Assembly: GCF_003762835.1 (NCBI RefSeq) | Contig: NZ_RJWA01000006.1 | Location: 124,001-188,000 of the forward strand | Source: Micromonospora sp. HM5-17 | GTDB lineage: Bacteria; Actinomycetota; Actinomycetes; Mycobacteriales; Micromonosporaceae | Length of the DNA: 64,000 bases | Reading direction: 5' to 3' | Shown: piece after piece, positions 55,211 to 64,000 of the stretch | Layout of the letters: each line of letters opens with the position of its first letter | Position numbering within the stretch: the stretch's first letter is position 1 | The notes under the pieces: model-generated | Database searches by the model: none | Told to the model about the DNA's origin: nothing | Seen by the model: the letters and a program-made list of their open reading frames with translations, nothing else | Position numbers and translations under genes: made by a program

Positions 55211-55441
55211 ATGCTGCCCCGACTCCGCACCCGTATCACCCACGCCGGGATGGTCGGCGACCTGGTCGGCCTGGCGGTCGCCGCCGACCAGATCGACCGC
55301 CAGGCCGACCACCTGGACGCGTCCCGCCTAGCCCGGGCCACGTCCGCCCTGCCGCCGACGGAGACGCTGCGGGCGGTCGCCGCCGGCTGGCGGCACCGGG
55401 CCGAGGAGACGGGGGCCGACCTGGCCACCAACCAGTCCTGA
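55211..55441 (+). CDS. Small hypothetical protein of the transfer region
   Basis: A 76-residue soluble helical protein (MLPRLRTRITHAGMVGDLVGLAVAADQID) with a perfect AAAGGAG site six bases before ATG 55211. It follows the DUF2637 gene after 11 bases. No family is recognised. Confidence 0.72.
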   Translation: MLPRLRTRITHAGMVGDLVGLAVAADQIDRQADHLDASRLARATSALPPTETLRAVAAGWRHRAEETGADLATNQS

Positions 55442-55454
55442 CCAGCCCAAAGTC

Positions 55455-55496
55455 GCGGGGCGCGGCAGACCTACCAAGCCAAGCGCCGCGCCCCGC
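55455..55496 (+). terminator. Intra-operon hairpin
   Basis: Arms GCGGGGCGCGGC (55455-55466) and GCCGCGCCCCGC (55485-55496) form a 12-pair stem with an 18-base loop, between the 76-aa gene and the next. There is no T-run. It may be a partial terminator or attenuator that sets the ratio of gene products. Confidence 0.55.
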
Positions 55497-55522
55497 CCGA
55501 TCCCCCCGGAAGGAGAGGAACC

Positions 55523-55792
55523 GTGACCACCCTGTACCACACCCCGCCGGTCGACGACGACATCGACCTGGCCCTCGACGACCCGGTCGAGCACACCGAC
55601 CCGCCGGCCAACCGGTGGACGGCCGTCGTGCACGGCCTGCTCGCCACCCTGCCCATCCCGGTCACGGGCGCGATCATCAGCGAGACCGTCGGCCCGGACT
55701 GGCTGACCTGGCTGCTGGCTGGCCTGGGCATCCTCGTCGTCGCCGCGTGCGTGGCGGCGCTGGTCGCCGAGCGGCGGGAGATGCTCCGGTGA
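55523..55792 (+). CDS. Small two-helix membrane protein (Spd-like)
   Basis: An 89-residue protein with an acidic N terminus and two hydrophobic segments (VVHGLLATLPIPVTGAIIS and LTWLLAGLGILVVAACVAALVA). GTG 55523 follows AAGGAGAGG. Its stop overlaps the next GTG by four bases. Small membrane proteins in a row in front of a TraB-like gene are the Spd (spread) genes of Streptomyces elements. The assignment is by position and shape only. Confidence 0.72.
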   Translation: MTTLYHTPPVDDDIDLALDDPVEHTDPPANRWTAVVHGLLATLPIPVTGAIISETVGPDWLTWLLAGLGILVVAACVAALVAERREMLR

Positions 55793-56061
55793 AGCAGCGG
55801 ACCCTGAACACGCGCGGCAACATCGCGCTCGGCGCGTCCGGCGCGGTCGGCCTGTTCGTCGGCACCGGTGCCGTCGCCGGCGGCTGGTCGGCCATCCACA
55901 CGTGGCTGTCCGTCACGCTCGGTATCCTCGCCGGCGCCGCGGTGGTCTGCTACACGCTGGCCGGTCGCCCGCGGCGGCAGGTGAGTGTCGGGGGTGACTC
56001 ACCCCAGGTGACTCACCCCGCTGTAGAGTCGTCTGCCACCCCCTCTGAGGTGCGGCGATGA
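55789..56061 (+). CDS. Small membrane protein with VTHP repeats at the end (Spd-like)
   Basis: A 90-residue protein starting VKQRTLNTRGNIALGASGAVGLFVG at a GTGA overlap, with two hydrophobic segments. The C terminus SVGGDSPQVTHPAVESSATPSE is encoded by the first two copies of the GGTGACTCACCCC dyad, so the DNA signal imposes the residues. The ATGA overlap with the next gene shows tight coupling. Confidence 0.72.
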   Translation: MKQRTLNTRGNIALGASGAVGLFVGTGAVAGGWSAIHTWLSVTLGILAGAAVVCYTLAGRPRRQVSVGGDSPQVTHPAVESSATPSEVRR

Positions 56062-56102
56062 CGGCCGACGAGCAGGTGACTCACCCCGAGGTGACTCACC
56101 CC
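55993..56102. repeat. Four GGTGACTCACCCC dyad repeats in two pairs
   Basis: Copies lie at 55993-56005, 56007-56019, 56075-56087 and 56090-56102. The core GGTGA-C-TCACC is self-complementary. Pair spacing is 14 and 15 bases, and the pairs are about 82 bases apart. They lie inside the coding sequence of two adjacent Spd-like genes, 1.2 kb before the FtsK/TraB-like gene. Possible roles are a translocase recognition locus (clt) or an operator cluster. Confidence 0.7.
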
Positions 56103-56921
56103 GACACGATCACCAAGGTGGCCCAGGACCGGCCCACGAAGGCCAGCGGCGAGACATCTCGCCCGCGCACGGTCCGTAACCGCATCAAGATGCCGCCGCC
56201 GAAGACGCTCGCGGCCGTGGCGCTCGTGGTGGCCGCGGTTGAGCTGCTGATCTGGCAAGTCGGCGGCCCGGTGTGGGGAATCGTGATCCACGCCGTCCTG
56301 CTCGTCGTCGTCTTCGGGCCCACCGCGGTGCTGCTCATCATCGCGTGGAGGAAGGCCCGGGCCGCCCGCCGCGGGGCTGCCGGGGTTACTAGGCAGACGA
56401 CGACCACCACCCGGACCGGCCGGGGACCGCTGGGCAAGCTGTTCGGCCGCGGCCGCGACCGTGGCAGGTCCGGCAACGGTACCGGGCAAACCCGGCCGGG
56501 TTTGTTGTCCCGGCTGTTCCCTGGCCGGCCGCCAGCAGCAGCGGTAGGAATCCGTTTGGGCGGCTGTTCGCCCCGACCAGCGGCCGGGGCCGGTCGCCGA
56601 AGGGCGGCTCCGCCCCGGCCAGCAGCCGGGGCCGCCAGCACGGCACTCCGTCCGCCGCCCGGGCGTCCAGTAGCAAGCCGGGCAAGAAGAAGCCGTCGAT
56701 CTGGGACGACTTCCTGCGTGGCCTGCGCGGGGGCCAGCCGGCCCGGGCGGACAAGCGCAAGCCGTCACCCGGCCCGACGGCCGCGACGTACAAGGCCGAG
56801 GACAACACCAAGGACGAGAAGGCCGCCACGACCGACGAGCTGGTCAAGGAGGCCGTCAAGAAGGCAGCCGACGCCGCCGAGGAGAAGAACGCGACGCCGG
56901 CAGTACCCAGCCCACGCATAG
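56058..56921 (+). CDS. Membrane protein read in frame 0 up to a likely -1 frameshift
   Basis: ATG 56058 starts MTADEQVTHPEVTHPDTITK, with VTHP encoded by the dyad repeats. Two hydrophobic segments (TLAAVALVVAAVELLIWQVG and IVIHAVLLVVVFGPTAVLLIIAW) and basic GR-rich repeats (GPLGKLFGRGRDRGRSG, GLLSRLFPGR) follow. From about 56510 frame 0 becomes Arg/Pro noise, while the -1 frame continues as NPFGRLFAPTSGRG, KKKPSIWDDFLRGLRGG and a helical AVKKAADAAEEK. The real product therefore most likely changes frame at GGGTTTG and runs to the gene at 56930 or through it to 57292. Confidence 0.7.
   Translation: MTADEQVTHPEVTHPDTITKVAQDRPTKASGETSRPRTVRNRIKMPPPKTLAAVALVVAAVELLIWQVGGPVWGIVIHAVLLVVVFGPTAVLLIIAWRKARAARRGAAGVTRQTTTTTRTGRGPLGKLFGRGRDRGRSGNGTGQTRPGLLSRLFPGRPPAAAVGIRLGGCSPRPAAGAGRRRAAPPRPAAGAASTALRPPPGRPVASRARRSRRSGTTSCVACAGASRPGRTSASRHPARRPRRTRPRTTPRTRRPPRPTSWSRRPSRRQPTPPRRRTRRRQYPAHA
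56498..56504 (+). other. Slippery heptamer GGGTTTG for -1 frameshift
   Basis: In frame 0 the bases divide as CCG-GGT-TTG, so the heptamer is G-GGT-TTG, the canonical X-XXY-YYZ form. The A-site and P-site tRNAs can re-pair with GGG and TTT. A G/C-rich dyad AAACCCGGCCGGGTTT (56488-56503) overlaps it. Downstream GCCGCC (from about 56529) can pair with GGCGGC (from about 56570) to form a stalling stem. The -1 frame is open from 56393 to 57292. Confidence 0.65.
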
Positions 56922-56929
56922 GAGGAGCA

Positions 56930-57292
56930 ATGGGAGACATGAACCGCGTCCGCGCCGCCGCCAGCGAGCTGGCCGCCGCGCTCCGCGACTACGACCCCGA
57001 GTCGATGCACCACCTGGTCCGCGACATCCCGGGCCTGGGCGACGCTCTCGCGGACGTCGCCGCCGGCGTGCGGCAGATGGCCAGCCGCGCCGAGTCCGAG
57101 TGGCCCGTCGCCGCCCCGGTCGCCGAGGCGCTGCGGTCCGTCGCCGACGACATCCGCGCCGGCGCGGGCACCGCCGAAGAGGCCCGGGCGACCCTGCACA
57201 GGGAGAACGAGGTCGACATCGAGCGGGGGGTCGCGCCGCGGCACGGGTCGCGGGACATCGAGGCCAAGTGGGACGTCCGCGGCGCCGAGTGA
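56930..57292 (+). CDS. Helical protein, separately started or the end of the frameshift product
   Basis: ATG 56930 has AGGAGGAGC directly upstream. It encodes a 120-residue helical domain (MNRVRAAASELAAALRDYDPESMHHLVRDIPGLGDALADVAAGVRQMASRAESEWPV...). The same frame is open upstream into the -1 frame of the preceding gene, so the domain could be made both as a free protein and as the C-terminal part of the frameshift product. No family is recognised. It is 21 bases before the translocase gene. Confidence 0.72.
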   Translation: MGDMNRVRAAASELAAALRDYDPESMHHLVRDIPGLGDALADVAAGVRQMASRAESEWPVAAPVAEALRSVADDIRAGAGTAEEARATLHRENEVDIERGVAPRHGSRDIEAKWDVRGAE

Positions 57293-57313
57293 CGAGGTAA
57301 GGAGGTAGACGCG

Positions 57314-59389
57314 ATGGACGGTCGGGGATCGTGGGAGAGCCTCGCGGGTGGCGTCATCGCCACCGTCGGGCCGCTGGTGGCGGCCGGTGTCGGGCAGGCG
57401 GTCGACGTGCCGGCGTGGGCGCCTGCGGTCCCCGCCGCTGGCATCGTCGCCGGCATGGCGGTCAGGGACTGGATCACCGCCCGGCCGTGGTCGGAGCGGG
57501 TGTTCCGACTCGCCGCGGGCCTCGCGGCTGGCGGGTGGGCGGTCTGGTCGACGGTGACCGGGCCGTGGCAGGTCGCCAACCTGGTCGTCGGCGGGGCGCT
57601 GGCCGGGGCCGGCTGGCTGGTCGCGCCAGCGTTCACCGGCGGCGAGGATGAGCGCACGGTGACCGCTCCGGCGGCGCAGGCCAAGGTGTCTCAGCCGGTC
57701 GGTCGCCGAGCGCAGTGGAAGGCGCTCATCGAGCGAATCTGCCGGGTGCAGCCGATCACCATCACCGCCGACATCGACTGGCCCACCGGCACCGGATTCA
57801 CGTTGCACGTCGAGTTCGCGCCCGGCTCGGGTGACACGTGGACGGCGATCCGCGACAACGCGGTCCGGCTCGCCGGCGCTGCCCAGCCCCGCCTACCCCG
57901 AGGCTGCATGATCAGCGTCGAGGAGGGCGATCTGCAGGGTACGGCGGTGGTGCGGGTCCCGACCGTGTACGCGCTCGCCGAGGATGTGCCGCAACCGGAC
58001 GACACGTCTCCGCTGTCGATCTGGGATGACCTGCCGATCGGGGTGAACGAGGACACCACCGTAGCCACCGTGAATCTGCGGCAGGCGTCAGCGTTGATCG
58101 CTGGCCGCCGCGGCGGCGGCAAGAGCAACGCACTCAAGGTGCTGGTGGGCCAGTTGTTGCGCTGCCGGGACACTGTCGTCTGGATCGCCGACCTCAACGG
58201 CGGCGGTCTCGCGGTTCCGTTCATGCTGCCGTACGCCGAAGGGGAGGTTGTCACCCCGCCGATCGACTGGGTGGCGGCGAGCGCCGAAGAGGTGGTGCTG
58301 ATGGCCCGGGTCGCCGCCACCATCGCCGCCGACCGCAAGGCGAGGTACGCGGCGCTGACCGCGCGGGCCGGCGGCGACCTGCTGCCGGTCACCCGGGACC
58401 TGCCGCAGATCACGATCGTGGTCGACGAGTCGGCCGAGGTGGAGGATGACCCGGCGGCCCGGGCGGCGATGGACGCGCTGCGTAAGGTCCAGAGAATTGG
58501 GCGCGCGGAGGCCGTGAACATTGTTTTCTCGGCGCTGCGGGCCACGATGGACACGATCCCGGTCAGCGTGCGAAAGCAGGCGGCACTCAAGTTGTGTGGC
58601 CCGGTAGAGGACGACACCGAACTCGAATACATGCTGCCCGGCTCCCGGGTCCGCAGCGCCGACCTCGTACACCCCGGAACCTTCTTCCTCCGTCGCGGCG
58701 ACGGTGGCGCGGCCGTGCGCCAGATCAAGGTGTACAGGACGCTTCCGGACCAGATCCGACGCCTGGTCGTGGCCACCGGCGGGCAGCGCGCCCAGCTGGA
58801 CCCGGCCGGCCAGCACGTGGGCGGCCGGACATACGCGGAGCGGTGGCAGCGGTTGCAGCCGTGGCTGGACCAGCTGGCCGGCCGCCCGTCGGCCGCGCCG
58901 GAGCCGGCGGACGCTGTCAGCGTGCCCGCCTACGGCCGTCCGGACGTGATCGCCGCGATCCACGACGCCGGCCGGCTGGACCGGGCGGTTGCGGCCGAGC
59001 AGCAGGTGCAGGCTCAGCCCGAGGACCGGCCGCTGTCGCGGGAGGAGCGGGACGAGCGCCGCCGCCGGGCGCGGGAGGGTTTGCGGCGGGCGGCGGCACG
59101 CGCCGAGATGGAGTCCATGCCGAAAGACCAGCTGGACACTGTGTTCGAGGCCCTCGTCGCCGACCTACGGCCGTCGTCCGGTGGCCAGGACGGCGCGGGG
59201 TGGCGGCCGGAGCTGCTGATCGACCTCGCCCGGGAGTCCGGGCCGGAGGGTATCGGCCCGACGGAGATGCAGCGGGTGCTCGGCTCGCGCGGGGTCGAGG
59301 TCAGCATGAAGACCGTGAACAAGTGGGTGGCCAAGTTCGTTCAGGAAGGCAAGCTGCGGAAGCTGGACGGCGGCCGGTACAAGGCCTAG
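57314..59389 (+). CDS. FtsK/TraB-type DNA translocase of the element
   Basis: The 691-residue ATPase has two or three N-terminal hydrophobic segments (about 10-55 and 60-105), a motor domain with Walker A GRRGGGKSN (about 260-268) and Walker B ITIVVDESAEV (about 364-374), and a C-terminal winged helix (GIGPTEMQRVLGSRGVEVSMKTVNKWVAKFVQEGKL, about 645-680). TraB proteins of Streptomyces plasmids move double-stranded DNA to the recipient mycelium and read short repeats with such a winged helix. A perfect AAGGAGGT precedes ATG 57314. A bidirectional terminator follows. Confidence 0.88.
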   Translation: MDGRGSWESLAGGVIATVGPLVAAGVGQAVDVPAWAPAVPAAGIVAGMAVRDWITARPWSERVFRLAAGLAAGGWAVWSTVTGPWQVANLVVGGALAGAGWLVAPAFTGGEDERTVTAPAAQAKVSQPVGRRAQWKALIERICRVQPITITADIDWPTGTGFTLHVEFAPGSGDTWTAIRDNAVRLAGAAQPRLPRGCMISVEEGDLQGTAVVRVPTVYALAEDVPQPDDTSPLSIWDDLPIGVNEDTTVATVNLRQASALIAGRRGGGKSNALKVLVGQLLRCRDTVVWIADLNGGGLAVPFMLPYAEGEVVTPPIDWVAASAEEVVLMARVAATIAADRKARYAALTARAGGDLLPVTRDLPQITIVVDESAEVEDDPAARAAMDALRKVQRIGRAEAVNIVFSALRATMDTIPVSVRKQAALKLCGPVEDDTELEYMLPGSRVRSADLVHPGTFFLRRGDGGAAVRQIKVYRTLPDQIRRLVVATGGQRAQLDPAGQHVGGRTYAERWQRLQPWLDQLAGRPSAAPEPADAVSVPAYGRPDVIAAIHDAGRLDRAVAAEQQVQAQPEDRPLSREERDERRRRAREGLRRAAARAEMESMPKDQLDTVFEALVADLRPSSGGQDGAGWRPELLIDLARESGPEGIGPTEMQRVLGSRGVEVSMKTVNKWVAKFVQEGKLRKLDGGRYKA

Positions 59390-59392
59390 CAA

Positions 59393-59439
59393 CACGTAGA
59401 AGGGGCCCGGACCGTGCTGGTCCGGGCCCCTTCTACGTG
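59393..59439. terminator. Bidirectional terminator between convergent genes
   Basis: A perfect 21-base-pair stem (59393-59413 with 59419-59439, beginning CACGTAGAAGGGGCC) with a five-base loop. The outer pairs supply A-rich and T-containing flanks for both directions. It separates the translocase gene from the leftward small gene. Confidence 0.93.
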
Positions 59440-59446
59440 TCCGAGG

Positions 59447-59710
59447 TCAGAACTTGTCGTCGCCGTCGTGGACGATCGCGCGGGCCCGCGCGGCGAGCCG
59501 CGACCGGGCAGCCTCCTCGGTGGCGGCCTGCTCGACGATGGCGAGAATCTCCTTGTAGGTGGCGCCCCGGCCGACCGCTGTCTGGACGGCGACCGCGAGC
59601 CGGCGCAGGCCCTCGTTGTGGTCGGCGCGGGTACGGCCGACGCGGCCCGGGTCGGCGAGCGCCTCGGCGACGTCAGCGGCCCGCGGCCGCGGCGTTTCGA
59701 TCGTCATCAC
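59447..59710 (-). CDS. Small helical protein of the element
   Basis: An 87-residue basic helical protein (RAADVAEALADPGRVGRTRADHNEGLRRLAVAVQTAVGRGATYKEILAIVEQAATEEAARSRL). GTG 59710 or ATG 59707 may start it. It lies 33 bases behind the winged-helix gene on the same strand and is probably cotranscribed. GATYKEILAIVEQAATEEAA looks like a short DNA-binding helix pair. No family is recognised. Confidence 0.65.
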   Translation of the reverse strand: MMTIETPRPRAADVAEALADPGRVGRTRADHNEGLRRLAVAVQTAVGRGATYKEILAIVEQAATEEAARSRLAARARAIVHDGDDKF

Positions 59711-59743
59711 GCGCTCTACTGTCCCACATGACTGCTACGTGTG

Positions 59744-59956
59744 CTACCGCCGACGCACGTAGTACCCGCCGCGGGGGACGCTCTCCAGCAGCCCGGCCAC
59801 CGCCAGCCGGTACGTCGCGTTCCGGATCGTCTGCTCCGACACCCCGTACGCAACGGCGAGCTCGCGTCGAGACGGCAGCCGGACGCCGGGCGGGTACTCG
59901 CCGGACCGGATCCGCGCGGTGAGGTCGTCCATGACGCGCTGCGTCTTCGTGGGCAC
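59744..59956 (-). CDS. Stand-alone winged-helix GntR DNA-binding domain
   Basis: Only 70 residues, forming a complete GntR winged helix (MDDLTARIRSGEYPPGVRLPSRRELAVAYGVSEQTIRNATYRLAVAGLLESVPRGGYYVRRR) without any ligand domain. GTG 59956 has AAGGAG nine bases upstream. Together with the UTRA-only protein at 53516-54061 the element carries both halves of a GntR as separate proteins. A palindrome CTGGGTATACCCAG 82 bases upstream is a plausible binding site. Confidence 0.82.
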   Translation of the reverse strand: MPTKTQRVMDDLTARIRSGEYPPGVRLPSRRELAVAYGVSEQTIRNATYRLAVAGLLESVPRGGYYVRRR

Positions 59957-60327
59957 GGTGGTGGGCTCCTTGGCGGGATGCCCGTCACCTCACCATGCCG
60001 ATCATCGGAGCGCCATCATTCCCGCACGGCGGGTTGACTGGGTATACCCAGACGGGCAGGATGAGCCCGTGACCTGCTCCTTGGCGGGATGTCGGGTCAC
60101 CGGTGACGGGGCGGCAGGCTGGTGACCAGGCCACCCTGTCACCACCCGGTCCGGGCCGTCGACTTTCGCAGAGGGGCAGCCCGGACCGGGAATCACACCC
60201 CTCGTCATGACCGCGGCGCTCCGTGACTAGTCTCCGGGGCGCCGCGTGCTATCCGCCGGACGGGTACCGTACTGGGCCGATCGGCGGACGGCGATCACTT
60301 GACGTCGACCGATAACGTGACCGGCCG
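59957..60327. promoter_or_regulatory. Control region with a promoter-overlapping palindrome and a 16-bp direct repeat
   Basis: A perfect 14-base palindrome CTGGGTATACCCAG (60038-60051) overlaps TTGACT (60034-60039), a good -35, with CAGGAT (60057-60062) at 17-base spacing as -10 for the plus strand. GCTCCTTGGCGGGATG occurs at 59965-59980 and 60076-60091. The first copy holds the ribosome site of the winged-helix gene on the other strand. I see no convincing gene in the rest. Confidence 0.5.
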
Positions 60328-60423
60328 ATGCACTTCGGGCTTCGCCTTCCCGTTGTCGCGGTCTGGGCAGCGGCGATCCTCGCGATGGTCGGGCTGTGCG
60401 CAGAGCCGGCGGCCATCACCTGA
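60328..60423 (+). CDS. Possible 31-residue membrane peptide
   Basis: ATG 60328 opens MHFGLRLPVVAVWAAAILAM followed by VGLCAEPAAIT and TGA. One hydrophobic helix is visible. No Shine-Dalgarno is seen. It lies just before the small HTH gene. It may be a chance frame. Confidence 0.3.
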   Translation: MHFGLRLPVVAVWAAAILAMVGLCAEPAAIT

Positions 60424-60452
60424 CCATCCGCGCCGGGCGGTGAGAGGAGAGC

Positions 60453-60677
60453 ATGATGGCCGGCAGGGAACTCAAGGCGGCGCTGGGGCGTCAGCTCGCG
60501 GCGAGCTGGGCCCGGCGCGGGTTCCTGCCTGAGGAGGCTGAGCCGTTGATCGCCGACGGCGTGACCCCCGCCACCGTGCGGGAGATGGAGCAGTACGCCG
60601 AGGAGAGCGAGGCCGAGATAGCCCGGTCGGCGGGGATCAGCGAGTCGACCGTCCGCGCCTGGGCCAGCGAGAGGTGA
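60453..60677 (+). CDS. Small HTH-like protein of the element
   Basis: A 74-residue protein beginning MMAGRELKAALGRQLAASWARRGFL at ATG 60453, with GAGAGGAG upstream. The last third, EIARSAGISESTVRAWASER, matches a helix-turn-helix recognition pair (AGISESTVRAW). It could be a small regulator or an excisionase-like protein. It is followed by two hairpins and a gene-free region. Confidence 0.7.
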   Translation: MMAGRELKAALGRQLAASWARRGFLPEEAEPLIADGVTPATVREMEQYAEESEAEIARSAGISESTVRAWASER

Positions 60678-60730
60678 CCGGCGCCGTCCCGAGACGGGGC
60701 TAGCGCCTCGGGACGGGCCGTGCCACGACG

Positions 60731-60768
60731 AAGCGGCCCCGGCCTCCACGCGGAGGCCGGGGCCGCTT
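60731..60768. terminator. Strong 17-pair hairpin
   Basis: AAGCGGCCCCGGCCTCC (60731-60747) pairs with GGAGGCCGGGGCCGCTT (60752-60768) over a four-base loop. It can stop the plus-strand transcript of the HTH gene and, on the minus strand, ends directly behind the two CRISPR-repeat-like units. A weaker hairpin with arms CGTCCCGAG and CTCGGGACG lies at 60685-60715. Confidence 0.85.
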
Positions 60769-60845
60769 GCTTCAGCCCCGCATGGCGGGGATCACGGGAA
60801 TCCGAGCGTGTGGCATGGATCATCCCCACATGCGTGGGGACCTAC
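60769..60845 (-). CRISPR. Two type I-E CRISPR repeat-like units with a 21-nt gap
   Basis: Read on the minus strand, unit A (60845-60817, 29 nt) begins GTAGGTCCCCACGCATG and ends GTGGGGATGATCC. Its six-pair stem CCCCAC/GTGGGG, GCAT loop and ATGATCC tail match the actinobacterial type I-E repeat consensus, with a compensated base pair. Unit B (60795-60769, 27 nt) begins GTGATCCCCGCCATG and ends CGGGGCTGAAGC, close to the same consensus with one base missing. The gap is 21 nt, not the 32-33 of a working array. A terminator follows directly, a candidate -10 box precedes. No cas gene is near. An RNA anti-CRISPR, a tiny array, or a decayed one are the options. Confidence 0.6.
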
Positions 60846-60856
60846 GCGTGGCACTG

Positions 60857-60862
60857 ACGGTA
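60857..60862 (-). promoter_or_regulatory. Candidate -10 box for the repeat-like RNA
   Basis: On the minus strand TGTGCTACCGT contains TACCGT, a common actinobacterial -10, preceded by TG-N2. The expected start of transcription is about 60850, five bases before the first repeat-like unit. The -35 region is weak. An RNA of about 120 nt would end at the hairpin at 60768-60731. Confidence 0.4.
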
Positions 60863-60907
60863 GCACAGGATCGACCGTGATCGGCACCCCGCGACCCCCC
60901 GACACGC

Positions 60908-60946
60908 TGTAGACAGGTCTACATCAGTACTGTAGACTGGTCTACA
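60908..60946 (+). promoter_or_regulatory. Double operator with embedded promoter and leaderless start
   Basis: TGTAGACAGGTCTACA (60908-60923) and TGTAGACTGGTCTACA (60931-60946) are perfect inverted repeats around two central bases, 23 bases apart. TAGACA (60910-60915) is a good -35, TAGACT (60933-60938) a good -10, with exactly 17 bases between. The last base of the second palindrome is the A of ATG 60946, so transcript and translation start together. Confidence 0.75.
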
Positions 60947-61287
60947 TGAGCGAGCGGCAGATCATTCGAGACATCGCCCGGTACAGCGACCACGACGCCC
61001 CGGCTCACCACTGGTCCCTCGTCATCGACGGCGAGACCGTCTCGGAGCTGTGGGTCGACATGGAGACCGGCGAGATCCTTCAGGTGGAGACCCCACGGGA
61101 GCACCAGCGCCGCGGCTACGCCTCCGCCCTGTACCGGCGGGCCGCGAGCGAGATGGCCATCTACCACGCCCCCGAGGCGCACCGCACCCCCGAGGGTGAC
61201 CGCTTCGCCCGCAGCGTCGGCGGCGAGTCCCTTCCCTGCCTGCACGGCTGCTGCGACGACAGCCCGGATTTCGACGACGAGGAGTAG
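60946..61287 (+). CDS. GNAT-like early protein of the element
   Basis: The 113-residue protein has beta-strand-rich WSLVIDGETVSELWVDMETGEILQVETPREHQRRGYASALYRRAASE. The R-R-G-Y-A-S-A-L segment is the acetyl-CoA loop pattern of GNAT enzymes. A Cys pair (LPCLHGCCDD) near the end is extra. Such short GNAT-like proteins are frequent in actinophages, where their role is not known. Expression should be controlled by the double operator and leaderless. It is first in a row of three overlapping or adjacent genes. Confidence 0.75.
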   Translation: MSERQIIRDIARYSDHDAPAHHWSLVIDGETVSELWVDMETGEILQVETPREHQRRGYASALYRRAASEMAIYHAPEAHRTPEGDRFARSVGGESLPCLHGCCDDSPDFDDEE

Positions 61288-61291
61288 CCCG

Positions 61292-61651
61292 ATGGAGCTC
61301 AGCGACGACCTGATGGCCTGGCTCGGCCCGGCCGCCGACGACCTCACCCCCGAGCAGATCGACCGCCTCCACGCCGTGGCGGCGGCCATCGCCGAGCGAT
61401 ACCCGGACCCCGACGAGCAGCCGGAGCGCGACGCCGCCCTCTCCGCGGCCGTGCAGTACCTGCTCGGGGAGACCACGCCCGAGGACGCGGCACGGGCGCT
61501 GATCGACGCGCGGCGGCGGGCGCGGGAGGCCTACGTGGCCGCCGAGCAGATCGCCGTCATGCTGGTCACCGACGGCACCCCGAAGGCGACTGCGGCGCGG
61601 CGAGCCGGCATCGACCGGATGAGCCTGCTCAAGGCGCTGGGCGAGCGATGA
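61292..61651 (+). CDS. Hypothetical helical protein with HTH-like end
   Basis: The 119-residue protein (MELSDDLMAWLGPAADDLTPEQIDRLHAVAAAIAERYPD) is helical. Its last 35 residues (AEQIAVMLVTDGTPKATAARRAGIDRMSLLKALGER) look like a helix-turn-helix. ATG 61292 is four bases after the previous stop. It overlaps the next ATG by four bases. Confidence 0.7.
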   Translation: MELSDDLMAWLGPAADDLTPEQIDRLHAVAAAIAERYPDPDEQPERDAALSAAVQYLLGETTPEDAARALIDARRRAREAYVAAEQIAVMLVTDGTPKATAARRAGIDRMSLLKALGER

Positions 61652-61968
61652 CCGCAGTCGCCACCCTGGCCCACGGCCAGCCGGAGTATGCCGCCCTGCT
61701 GGACCGGATCCGGGCCGACGAGTGGCTGGTCGGCCGGATGTGGGTCGACGCGGAGAGCACCCCGGACGAGCTGGACGTGCCGGGCACGTGGTGGACCGTC
61801 GTGGTGGTCGGCGACGCCCCGGCGGCCTGGTGCGCGGCCCGCCTCGATGGGGACGCGCTCAGGTGCCACAGCAACGACGAAGCGGCCCGGCCCCCATCTC
61901 GGGGACCGGGCCGCTCTGCGTACCGGGGTCAGCGGCGCAGCAGCCGCGCCACCGTCGCCGGGCTGTAG
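61648..61968 (+). CDS. Phage-type hypothetical protein
   Basis: A 106-residue protein (MTAVATLAHGQPEYAALLDRIRADEWLVGRMWVDAESTPDELDVPGTWWTVVVVGDAPAAWCAARLDGD). The first 80 residues look like a short GNAT-like or beta-rich fold. The last 30 are basic and read through the hairpin at 61881-61915, so the natural end may be subject to termination. It overlaps the convergent holin-like gene. Confidence 0.62.
   Translation: MTAVATLAHGQPEYAALLDRIRADEWLVGRMWVDAESTPDELDVPGTWWTVVVVGDAPAAWCAARLDGDALRCHSNDEAARPPSRGPGRSAYRGQRRSSRATVAGL
61881..61915. terminator. Hairpin at the end of the early gene row
   Basis: AGCGGCCCGGCCCC (61881-61894) pairs with GGGGACCGGGCCGCT (61901-61915) with a single bulge. It is preceded by ACGACGA like the hairpin at 60731-60768, so the two look like copies of one terminator type. 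Confidence 0.75.
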
Positions 61969-62165
61969 ACCCGGCGGCGGCCGACCACGGCCACCACGAT
62001 CGGCGCCACCACGGCCACCACGCCGAGGATCGCCGACTGCTGGTCGGCGGACAGCGGTACGCCGAACGCGACCACGAGCGCGATCACGGCGGTCGCGGCG
62101 GCGGTCAGCGACCCGACCGAGAGCAGCGGCTCGGTGCTGTCCGGGTCAGGGGTGTGCTCCTGCAT
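61929..62165 (-). CDS. Holin-like small membrane protein
   Basis: The 78-residue protein has an acidic start (MQEHTPDPDSTEPL), two hydrophobic segments (SLTAAATAVIALVVAFGV and SAILGVVAVVAPIVVAVVG) and a basic end (RRRVYSPATVARLLRR). This is the shape of class II holins. The two genes before it in the same direction (the coiled-coil membrane protein and the endolysin) make a lysis cassette. Confidence 0.75.
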   Translation of the reverse strand: MQEHTPDPDSTEPLLSVGSLTAAATAVIALVVAFGVPLSADQQSAILGVVAVVAPIVVAVVGRRRVYSPATVARLLRR

Positions 62166-62170
62166 CTCTC

Positions 62171-62527
62171 CTACCTCTCCGGCGCCACGGCCTCAGCGAG
62201 CCGGGTCACCTTGTCATGCAGCGACGAACCACTGTTGGGCCTCAGCTCGTGCTCGACCGCAGCGAGGCGGCCGTCGAGGCAGCCGAGCCGCGCGTCCAGG
62301 CCGTCGAGCCGCCCATCGAGCCCGTCGAGGCGGCCCTCGATGGTGCCGATGCGCTCCATCAGCCCCGGCCGGGCTGGCACCCCCGGTCGAGCCGGCTCGC
62401 CCGTGAGGTCGTCCACCATGTGCGCGATGCGGCGCCCCCACCGGAGCGCCCCGCGCCCGATCCACACCACCCCGGCGGCCGCGCCGGTCACCGCCGCCAC
62501 CGCGCCGGCCATGTCGATCGGATCCAC
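62171..62527 (-). CDS. Membrane protein with heptad coiled coil of the lysis cassette
   Basis: A 118-residue protein with one N-terminal hydrophobic segment (IDMAGAVAAVTGAAAGVVWIG) and a coiled coil built of IEGRLDGLDGRLDGLDARLGCLDGRL, in which the seven-residue unit GRLDGLD repeats. It is similar in plan to DUF2746-type actinophage proteins encoded between endolysin and holin. It could be a second holin or a spanin-like regulator. Confidence 0.7.
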   Translation of the reverse strand: MDPIDMAGAVAAVTGAAAGVVWIGRGALRWGRRIAHMVDDLTGEPARPGVPARPGLMERIGTIEGRLDGLDGRLDGLDARLGCLDGRLAAVEHELRPNSGSSLHDKVTRLAEAVAPER

Positions 62528-62530
62528 CGG

Positions 62531-63328
62531 CTACCCCTCGCCCGGCGCGGTGAGCCGACGCAGCAGCTCGGCGACCAGCCGCGAGTAGTCGACCTCACCC
62601 GGCGGCCCGGGCTCACCCCGCGGCCCCTGCGGGCCGGCGGGACCCTGCGGGCCGGCCGGCCCCTGCTTCCCGGCGCCGTTCCGCCTCGCCACCATCTTCA
62701 GCAGCTGCGCGTACGTCGCCGGGGTGACCTCGTTGCCGTCCTTCGCGGCCACCGACCCGGCCGCCTTCCGCATCTCGTAGACGGCCTTGGCCGTCCGTTC
62801 CCCGTACACGCCATCCGGCTTCCCCGGGTCGAATCCGGCCTCGACCAGCGTGTGCTGGAGCGCCAGCACCCGGTCCCCCCGGTCGCCTCGTCTGACTCCG
62901 AGCATGTCGTCTCCTCCTGCCAGCCCCCACGGGCTGGTGTCGTCGTAGCGGCCGGTCGACCGGCCGTCCGGACCGGTGCCGACGCTGACGTGCATGTGCC
63001 GCGTGTGCGGGTTGCTGCCGGTGTAGGTCCGCCACGCCCACCCACTGGACGCGGACGCAATCCGCCGATTCCAGATCACGTACTTGAGCGCCGGGTGCCG
63101 CTGGGTGCGGATGTGCTCGGCGATCCGGTGCATGTCCGCCCCGGCCCCCGGGTCGTGGGTCAGGTCCAGCGCGCACACGACCCGGGACGGGTTCGGGTTG
63201 TGGTCCGACGGCCGGCTGGCGTGCGCGGCGTCGCCGATCGTGCCGTCGCTGGCCCTGCTCCGGCTGGGCGCGATCGCGTCCACCTCGGCGCGCAGCACCT
63301 CGAGGGAGCGGGCGAGCCTCCAGCCCAT
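62531..63328 (-). CDS. VanY-like endolysin with peptidoglycan-binding and collagen-like parts
   Basis: The 265-residue protein has a peptidase M15-type zinc site: RPSDHNPN (His43), CALDLTHD (Asp55) and RHMHVSV (His113). A peptidoglycan-binding-like helical domain (about 142-200; [37 protein letters not shown]) and a short collagen-like run ([19 protein letters not shown], about 226-246) follow. Such D,L-carboxypeptidase or endopeptidase lysins degrade the cell wall at the end of the phage cycle. It is followed by holin-like genes. Confidence 0.87.
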
Positions 63329-63338
63329 CAGGCCCTCC

Positions 63339-63803
63339 TCACGTAGCCGGGGCGACGATGACGATCCGGCGCGAGACCGCGCCGTTGCCGCCGGTCACCC
63401 GCATCGACAACGCCGCGTTGTAGGTCGCGCCCGGGGTGAGCCCGTCGACCAGCAGCGACGCCCCGCACCGGACCTGGTTCGTGCCCGCGTTAGAGATCGC
63501 GATCTGATCCTGCGGGGCGACGATCTCCGCCCCGGAGCCGACCGTGGCGCCGTCACCCACCCGCGGGGCAACCAGAGTCACCATCGAGCTGTTGTCCAAC
63601 TCGGCGGCGTAGTGCAGCAGTACGCGGCCGGTCGTCGGCGCACTGAAGGCGACCCCGCAGACCGTGGAGCCGCCCCACGTGGTGGCGTACGACGTGCCGA
63701 TGACCGCGGACGACACCGACCCGACCGTCCCGTCCTGCCGGTCAGCCACCGTCGGCGGGGTGTCCAGCGCGGACACCACCGACCCGGCCAGCAGATCAGG
63801 CAT
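63339..63803 (-). CDS. Phage structural protein, beta-rich
   Basis: The 154-residue protein (MPDLLAGSVVSALDTPPTVADRQDGTVGSVSSAVIGTSYATTWGGSTVCGVAFSAPTTGRVLLHYAAELDN) is a beta-sandwich rich in Gly, Val and Thr, typical of minor tail or head-fibre proteins of actinophages. ATG 63803 follows GAGGGGGGAG. It lies ten bases before the endolysin gene on the same strand. Confidence 0.75.
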   Translation of the reverse strand: MPDLLAGSVVSALDTPPTVADRQDGTVGSVSSAVIGTSYATTWGGSTVCGVAFSAPTTGRVLLHYAAELDNSSMVTLVAPRVGDGATVGSGAEIVAPQDQIAISNAGTNQVRCGASLLVDGLTPGATYNAALSMRVTGGNGAVSRRIVIVAPAT

Positions 63804-63812
63804 ACTCCCCCC

Positions 63813-64000
63813 TCACAGCGCCCGCCGCGCGGGCTGATAGACGCGTACCGGCGTCCCGGCCGGCCAGGCCCGGGACACGCCGTCGACTGCGCGCTGACTG
63901 ATGGTGATCGTCTGGGTGCTTAGCTGGGTCATGGTGTCCAGATAGACCGACTGCGCACCGGCGACGCCGGTAGCCGTCACCTGCACTCCGATCGCCCGGC
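63813..64000 (-). CDS. Phage protein, cut by the window edge
   Basis: The last 62 codons are present and read ATGVAGAQSVYLDTMTQLST, then ITISQRAVDGVSRAWPAGTPVRVYQPARRAL. It is beta-rich and looks like the end of a tail or minor structural protein. The start lies outside the window. Confidence 0.65.
   Translation of the reverse strand, partial: RAIGVQVTATGVAGAQSVYLDTMTQLSTQTITISQRAVDGVSRAWPAGTPVRVYQPARRAL

Follow-up and report, generated by a model that had tools for sequence, protein, structure and literature searches.

In the 64,000-nucleotide stretch of Micromonospora sp. HM5-17 DNA that was analysed here (the window), the minus strand at 60731..60862 carries, in 5'-to-3' order, the hexamer TACCGT, a 29-nt type I-E repeat-like unit, a 20-nt spacer, a second repeat-like unit of 27 nt, and a 17-bp hairpin (Table 1). 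This element lies between two plus-strand open reading frames (ORFs), 60453-60677 with weak helix-turn-helix matches and 60946-61287 with weak acetyltransferase matches. It is part of a prophage whose stretch within the window, 55211-64000, is identical to the IMG/VR contig IMGVR_UViG_2858908967_000002 (38,578 bases); if that contig starts at 55211, its length would carry it precisely to the integrase stop codon. ORFs of the prophage match PHROGs for terminase, tape measure, and an endolysin-like protein as well as Pfam families for portal and integrase, and cas genes were not found among the ORFs scanned around the element, in agreement with the original prediction. When a phage collection was searched, window 57000-63900 gave no match, and 60600-61000 gave four records with short pieces at 80-90% identity.

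Two further observations concern the immediate neighborhood. The ORF at window 61196-61651 matches PHROG 2311 (HTH DNA-binding protein), and two tandem palindromes, TGTAGAC(A/T)GGTCTACA, lie at window 60907-60950 just before the ORF at 60946, divergent from the RNA unit, where they look like a repressor operator.

Table 1. Positions in the window of the prophage and of the parts of the repeat-like element.
Feature	Position	Strand	Basis or remark
Left part of the prophage carrying the element	55211..64000		Right end inferred at about C48:217,788
Candidate -10 element TACCGT	60857..60862	-	Sequence; not among the promoter-scan calls
First repeat-like unit, psiR1, TAGGTCCCCACGCATGTGGGGATGATCCA	60816..60844	-	Stem CCCCAC/GTGGGG, 6/6 pairs; 8-nt handle ATGATCCA
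Guide (spacer), TGCCACACGCTCGGATTCCC, 20 nt	60796..60815	-	Comparison with the host CreR-like spacer and the cas-leader site
Second repeat-like unit, psiR2, GTGATCCCCGCCATGCGGGGCTGAAGC	60769..60795	-	Nearer to the host CreR-like psiR2 than to array repeats
Terminal GC-rich hairpin, terminator-like	60731-60747 / 60752-60768	-	Perfect 17-bp inverted repeat

Layout of the prophage element and its chance expectation

Type I-E crRNAs carry an 8-nt handle, and when the handle is counted in this way the gap between the two units, originally described as 21 nt long, becomes a 20-nt spacer, with the repeat units spaced 49 nt apart. The tail of the first unit, GTGGGGATGATCC, has a single exact occurrence in the window and shares 12/13 bases with the tail of GTGCTCCCCGCGCACGCGGGGATGATCC, the repeat of the host array on C45; the remaining base belongs to a stem pair in which both partners have changed (A-T for G-C). 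The array handle ATGATCC is kept in this unit and is absent from the CreR-like element of the host that is described below.

Since the promoter scan called no sigma-70-type promoter on the minus strand at the element, TACCGT is a candidate only, and the terminator scan called no terminator at the terminal hairpin, which lacks a T run; the -10 hexamer and the 17-pair terminator of the original prediction are thus present as a sequence and as an inverted repeat, and the scans call neither. When the isolated prophage RNA was folded, the prediction was one long hairpin in which repeat pairs with repeat, and each hairpin alone does form; the long fold could compete with recognition by Cas6e. Rfam returned only matches below the gathering score in window 60400-61100. 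A second GC-rich stretch resembling the terminal hairpin (83% over 45 nt) was observed at window 61871-61915 (locus L004).

By a loose definition of a repeat pair (5/6 stem pairs, TG after the stem, and starts 35-57 nt apart), 102 kb of real sequence held one pair, and at least one pair was present in 27/60 first-order random sequences, so that a loose hairpin pair by itself is not significant. By a strict definition (left stem 6/6 with a.TG..CC tail, a fixed right-hand repeat motif, and a gap of 14-30), the real sequence again held one pair and second-order random sequences held none (0/800), which bears out the proposal that two type I-E repeat-like units lie on the minus strand of the prophage.

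Host CRISPR loci and the seed shared with the cas leader

Contig C45 of the host genome (6.17 Mb in 51 contigs) carries its two type I-E cas loci. Locus A has the order cas3-cse1-cse2-cas7-cas5-cas6 and is followed by a transposase fragment; neither cas1 nor cas2 turned up in the nine ORFs scanned there. Locus B is complete from cas3 to cas2 and adjoins an array. Across the genome, 148 places resemble an I-E repeat (pattern with up to 3 mismatches; the reversed control gave 5), and comparison of the prophage units with the CRISPR repeats of their host therefore came out in favor of the predicted resemblance, given two I-E cas loci, many I-E repeats, and a tail that is nearly the same. In locus A, Pfam Cas3_C falls at the N terminus of the Cse1 ORF (L074:3693-5711, C45) and not on Cas3. 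Elsewhere, a solitary I-E repeat, GTGCTCCCCGCGTACGCGCGGATGATC, lies upstream of an ORF at L081:1038-1064 (C51:71037-71063), with no array neighbors within the 2.2 kb fetched.

From the host arrays fetched, 113 repeat-spacer units were taken, in which the spacer is 32-33 nt long in 110/113 and repeat base 29 is C in 93/113. Because base 29 of the type I-E repeat derives from the PAM, an AAC PAM fits the host arrays. With up to 6 mismatches, host spacers match six places in the 102 kb, all of them within the prophage, and reversed spacers match none. The closest, with 2 mismatches each, are at window 63416 (AAC) and L083:4306 (TAT), another AAC-flanked match lies at L082:3830 (4 mismatches), and 4/6 are flanked by a triplet other than AAC (TAT, TAA, CGT, and ACG); up to 7 mismatches, there are ten matches, one of them outside the prophage. 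Being imperfect, the matches point to targeting of this phage or a relative in the past and need not mean that it is killed now.

CreRs have the shape of degenerate repeats around a shortened spacer, and the best match to the prophage element in a DNA search of the genome, besides itself and its own palindrome, appears from its sequence to be laid out like a CreR. It lies at C45:77854-77911 (79% over 57 nt), upstream of the cas3 gene of locus A, from which it is separated by a 77-aa ORF (L018:8015-8248, C45) with no Pfam family. Its parts are GGATCTCCAATACGGAGATGGACCA / TGCCAAACGCTGGGACGTCA / GTGATCCCCGCTCCCGCGGGGCTGAA, to be compared with GGTCCCCACGCATGTGGGGATGATCCA / TGCCACACGCTCGGATTCCC / GTGATCCCCGCCATGCGGGGCTGAA in the prophage, and the two spacers are the same at positions 1-5, 7-11, and 13-15, so that only positions 6 and 12 differ within 1-15. 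A third copy, AAC/TGCCAGACGCTAGGA, is found at C45:77718 in the presumed cas-A leader; it shares an intergenic region with the host element and precedes it by about 120 bp. An exact match to TGCCANACGCTNGGA occurs at three places only in the 6.17-Mb genome, namely C45:77718 with AAC before it, C45:77866 in the host element, and C48:184801 in the prophage, and all three copies carry mutually different bases at positions 6 and 12. One mismatch adds five further places, all on contigs other than that of the prophage.

Cascade flips out every sixth base of the crRNA and leaves it unpaired (PMC5904413), so that one of these three sequences can be taken as the target and the other two as guides with identical pairing to it. 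The prophage guide matches the cas-leader site at 13/13 pairing positions within 1-15, next to an AAC PAM, and by calculation two differences placed at random would land on both non-pairing positions of the 15 in 1 of 105 cases. The gap, which had been judged too short for a working spacer, in fact bears the seed of the host CreR-like element and of the AAC-flanked cas-leader site; given a good PAM, Cascade can bind with as few as 5 seed pairs, and interference takes more than 18 bp (PMC5904413).

No site like that of the cas-A leader was found at locus B, the promoter scan called no promoter at the host CreR-like element either, and Rfam gave no family at gathering score in L018 or L081. Exact matches to TGCCANACGCTNGGA number 19 in total in 353 other genomes of the family, with no flanking repeats seen, and a DNA search with the CreR region of the host (E 1e-5) matched none of 199 other genomes of that family, which makes the evolution of this region untraceable by DNA. 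A scan of viral contigs with the seed listed at least 120 stretches, most of them presumably due to chance, and one (L126) is this very prophage.

Related pairs in bacterial genomes and viral contigs

CreRs are described as crRNA-like RNAs with partial complementarity to the cas promoter in type I and V-A systems (PMC12737573, PMC13131331), with reports for types I-B, I-E, and V-A (PMC13131331). A scan of bacterial genomes gave at least 120 stretches, and 41 of the 80 taken had short repeat pairs by a stem test. The distance from ATGATCC to TCCCCGC is 25 nt in the prophage element, and the ten cas-adjacent elements compared with it have a gap of 25-26 nt; together with this host they made up 11 loci for a test of native sites, each set against 12 shuffled controls. 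A nearby site scored above all 12 controls at 6/11 loci, with the PAM AAG in Halomonas, Bordetella, and Pluralibacter and AAC in Olsenella, Actinomycetaceae, and this host, and the other 5/11 had no site above the shuffled controls. Position 6 differs in five of the six sites and position 12 in four, which is consistent with no constraint at either position, a pattern that is weak alone because the score ignores both. In three Streptomyces loci whose gap is 19 nt (L406, L521, and L525), a similar site can be seen by eye about 120-140 bp upstream; in the scored search, the L521 site alone ranked first among non-self sites, and L406 and L525 were not singled out. Another set of 12 genomes with short repeat pairs, 9 of them with Cas3, has 10 pairs away from cas and 2 adjoining it (L387 and L391); these two gave no site around cas3 in their own genomes, and no guide of the set scored above 15 shuffled controls in the cas3 neighborhoods fetched.

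Viral contigs carry such pairs as well. A strict pattern with an upper gap bound of 26 found 68 short-spacer I-E pairs in 50 viral contigs (some of them near-duplicates), with a gap of 25 in 35 pairs, 26 in 18, 19 in 6, and another value in 9, and a scan up to gap 30 gave 23 pairs, of which 11 have a gap of 26, 8 have 25, and two are longer (L314 and L316); canonical arrays fall outside the gap range of these scans. Within positions 1-11 of related viral guides, position 6 varies most, in 37/63 pairs versus 4-16 at the other ten positions, and from position 12 onward differences are common throughout (17-35 of 63 pairs), the pairs not being independent in either case. Among further recurrent guides, positions 6 and 12 are variable in the families GATGC.CA.GA and CGTTA.GGGCA.AG, the family AG.CT.AGGGGCG was seen in the viral loci L329, L332, L341, L349, L267, L357, and L364 and in the genome locus L392, and the viral contig stretch L354:520-672 has three consecutive short-spacer units with an identical guide.

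We compared 92 distinct guides, 83 from viral loci and 9 from genome loci not adjoining cas, with 127 genome loci (cas and others) and also with 40 Streptomyces cas loci. Among the matches listed for the 127 loci, the guide of L346, whose contig carries an integrase and a primase, matches the Olsenella cas-promoter site TAGAAAATGTATGGGAT beside cse1 at 15/15 pairing positions with AAC, one pairing position better than the native Olsenella element, and the guide of L251 matches AAC/CTCAACCGCGACGACACC at the conserved start of cas7 (NLNRDDTG) at 15/15 in 14 of the 127 loci. The same guide reaches 15/15 at the cas7 start in 2 of the 40 Streptomyces cas loci, where AAC with at least 13/15 gave 14 matches from 2 guides (13 of them from L251) versus 0-2 in 30 shuffled sets. 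In the 127-locus comparison, shuffled guides also gave 2-10 matches at 14/15 or better per set among the matches listed, and the case for L346 and L251 is therefore made by PAM, location, and recurrence and not by counts alone. Three ORFs of L251 that were tested matched no phage family. By eye, hairpin-forming sequence lies downstream of the second repeat in L346, L251, and L344, as in the prophage element. A 14/15 match of the L344 guide inside cas3 of one Streptomyces locus was taken as chance.

For about 89/92 of the viral or non-cas guides, no cas target was recognized in the sampled loci among the matches listed. Of two guide families common in the viral set, AANGCTTGNTACTT matched 5/121 Streptomyces genomes, none of them at a known cas7, and AANCGTTANGGGCANAG matched 0/121. 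Self-targets near 98 viral or prophage units were not in excess (4/98 at a score of at least 20 versus 35/588 shuffles). Whether CreR-type guide RNAs are a general class among viruses, in which short-spacer I-E pairs aim host Cascade at the leader or coding part of a cas operon and to which the prophage element, L346, and L251 would belong, is in our judgment evenly balanced; if they are, such guides would evolve under a pairing constraint that leaves every sixth position free.

Proposed mechanism, alternatives, and significance

Our observations on sequence, layout, seed match, PAM, uniqueness, and prophage context lead us to propose that the prophage element is probably an RNA anti-CRISPR that acts as a viral mimic of a CreR, loading host Cascade and directing it to the cas leader. 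The prophage would encode a stand-alone small RNA gene (promoter, degenerate I-E repeat, 20-nt guide, degenerate I-E repeat, and hairpin), the transcript would be processed by host Cas6e, and host Cascade would take up the RNA like a crRNA. Over its first 15 nt the guide would then pair, at each of the 13 positions able to do so, with the AAC-flanked site in the leader of cas operon A, the very site that is matched by the CreR-like element of the host, and Cascade would bind there without triggering Cas3, because pairing stops after position 15, and would lower cas transcription. We infer in this way that the RNA is expressed, processed, and loaded into Cascade, that it represses cas, and that the phage benefits, the prophage turning the host's negative feedback on cas to its own use. 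The host CreR may shut itself off; the prophage copy has no target site upstream of it and should thus escape such self-shutoff. Strong repression, however, may need pairing beyond 15 nt (PMC5904413), and since the second, complete I-E locus B has no like site, repressing locus A alone might not disarm the cell.

An RNA anti-CRISPR had been predicted originally, and this holds insofar as repeat mimicry appears to be aimed at the I-E system of the host, whereas the notion of a solitary-repeat decoy gives way to that of a guide. A decoy of the Racr type, whose repeat hairpins would occupy Cas6e and Cas7 while the guide is irrelevant, is unlikely. It would account for repeat mimicry within a prophage whose neighboring ORFs, as scanned, include no cas genes, and for the array handle retained in the first unit but not in the host CreR-like element, and candidate Racrs directed at type I-E have been described (PMC10651486); the guide, however, which a decoy could do without, has kept all 13 pairing positions common to the host element and the cas-leader site. 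A decoy effect may add to that of the guide.

The mimic reading is also preferred over the minimal or decayed array that had been put forward as an alternative. Such a decayed array, or a non-functional copy of the host CreR acquired by recombination, is quite improbable: the 79% identity of the matching halves speaks for a copy, but the stem of the first unit differs in sequence from that of the host psiR1 and still pairs 6/6, the only two changes in guide positions 1-15 are at the non-pairing positions, and the spacer is far from the length seen in 110/113 host units. Even less probable is a CreA-like antitoxin or another Cascade-guided regulator of a gene of the prophage itself. CreA (CreTA, CrePA) is likewise a crRNA-like RNA and represses a toxin gene by partial complementarity to its promoter (PMC12737573), but no target site for the element was found in the prophage, the sole exact seed site besides the two guides is the cas leader, and the five one-mismatch places lie off the prophage contig. 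Chance palindromes in GC-rich DNA have an almost negligible probability, for loosely defined pairs are not rare, but the strict definition yielded none at random and the seed match is a three-way one between guide, host element, and cas-leader site.

The proposed mimic thus stands between known systems. Like a CreR, it consists of two degenerate repeats around a shortened spacer and has limited complementarity to a cas leader next to a PAM, at the same site that the host CreR-like element matches; unlike one, it lies on C48 (184.8 kb) while the cas locus, with the host element in it (C45:77.9 kb), is on C45, and it ends in a strong hairpin of its own outside the leader to be repressed. With Racrs it shares CRISPR-repeat mimicry in a mobile element away from cas and a proposed inhibition of the host system, but a Racr is a solitary repeat unit, whereas this element has two repeats and a targeted guide and is proposed to repress cas transcription rather than to bind as a decoy. 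The Racr study allows for different functions in some predicted Racrs and notes that transcription can be repressed in a Cas-dependent manner through other repeat-like sequences (PMC10651486), which comes close to the idea of a viral CreR mimic without describing one. Its survey of viral repeat units set neighboring full repeats aside as arrays (PMC10651486), and elements like the present one may therefore have been overlooked. Virus-borne mini-CRISPR arrays, which serve against rival viruses (reviewed in PMC11656645), likewise place repeats in a viral genome and would use host Cas proteins, but the prophage element differs from them in its 20-nt guide in place of a full spacer, its degenerate repeats, and its match to the cas leader. 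No description of a phage-encoded CreR mimic was found in the open-access literature searched, a scope outside which most subscription journals and all preprints fall.

If our proposal is correct, the prophage of this Micromonospora strain would represent a new route to disarming CRISPR, in which Cas proteins are guided to silence their own genes by a copied host feedback RNA. This would join the fields of CreR autoregulation and RNA anti-CRISPRs and would predict which viral repeat pairs are guides and which are decoys.
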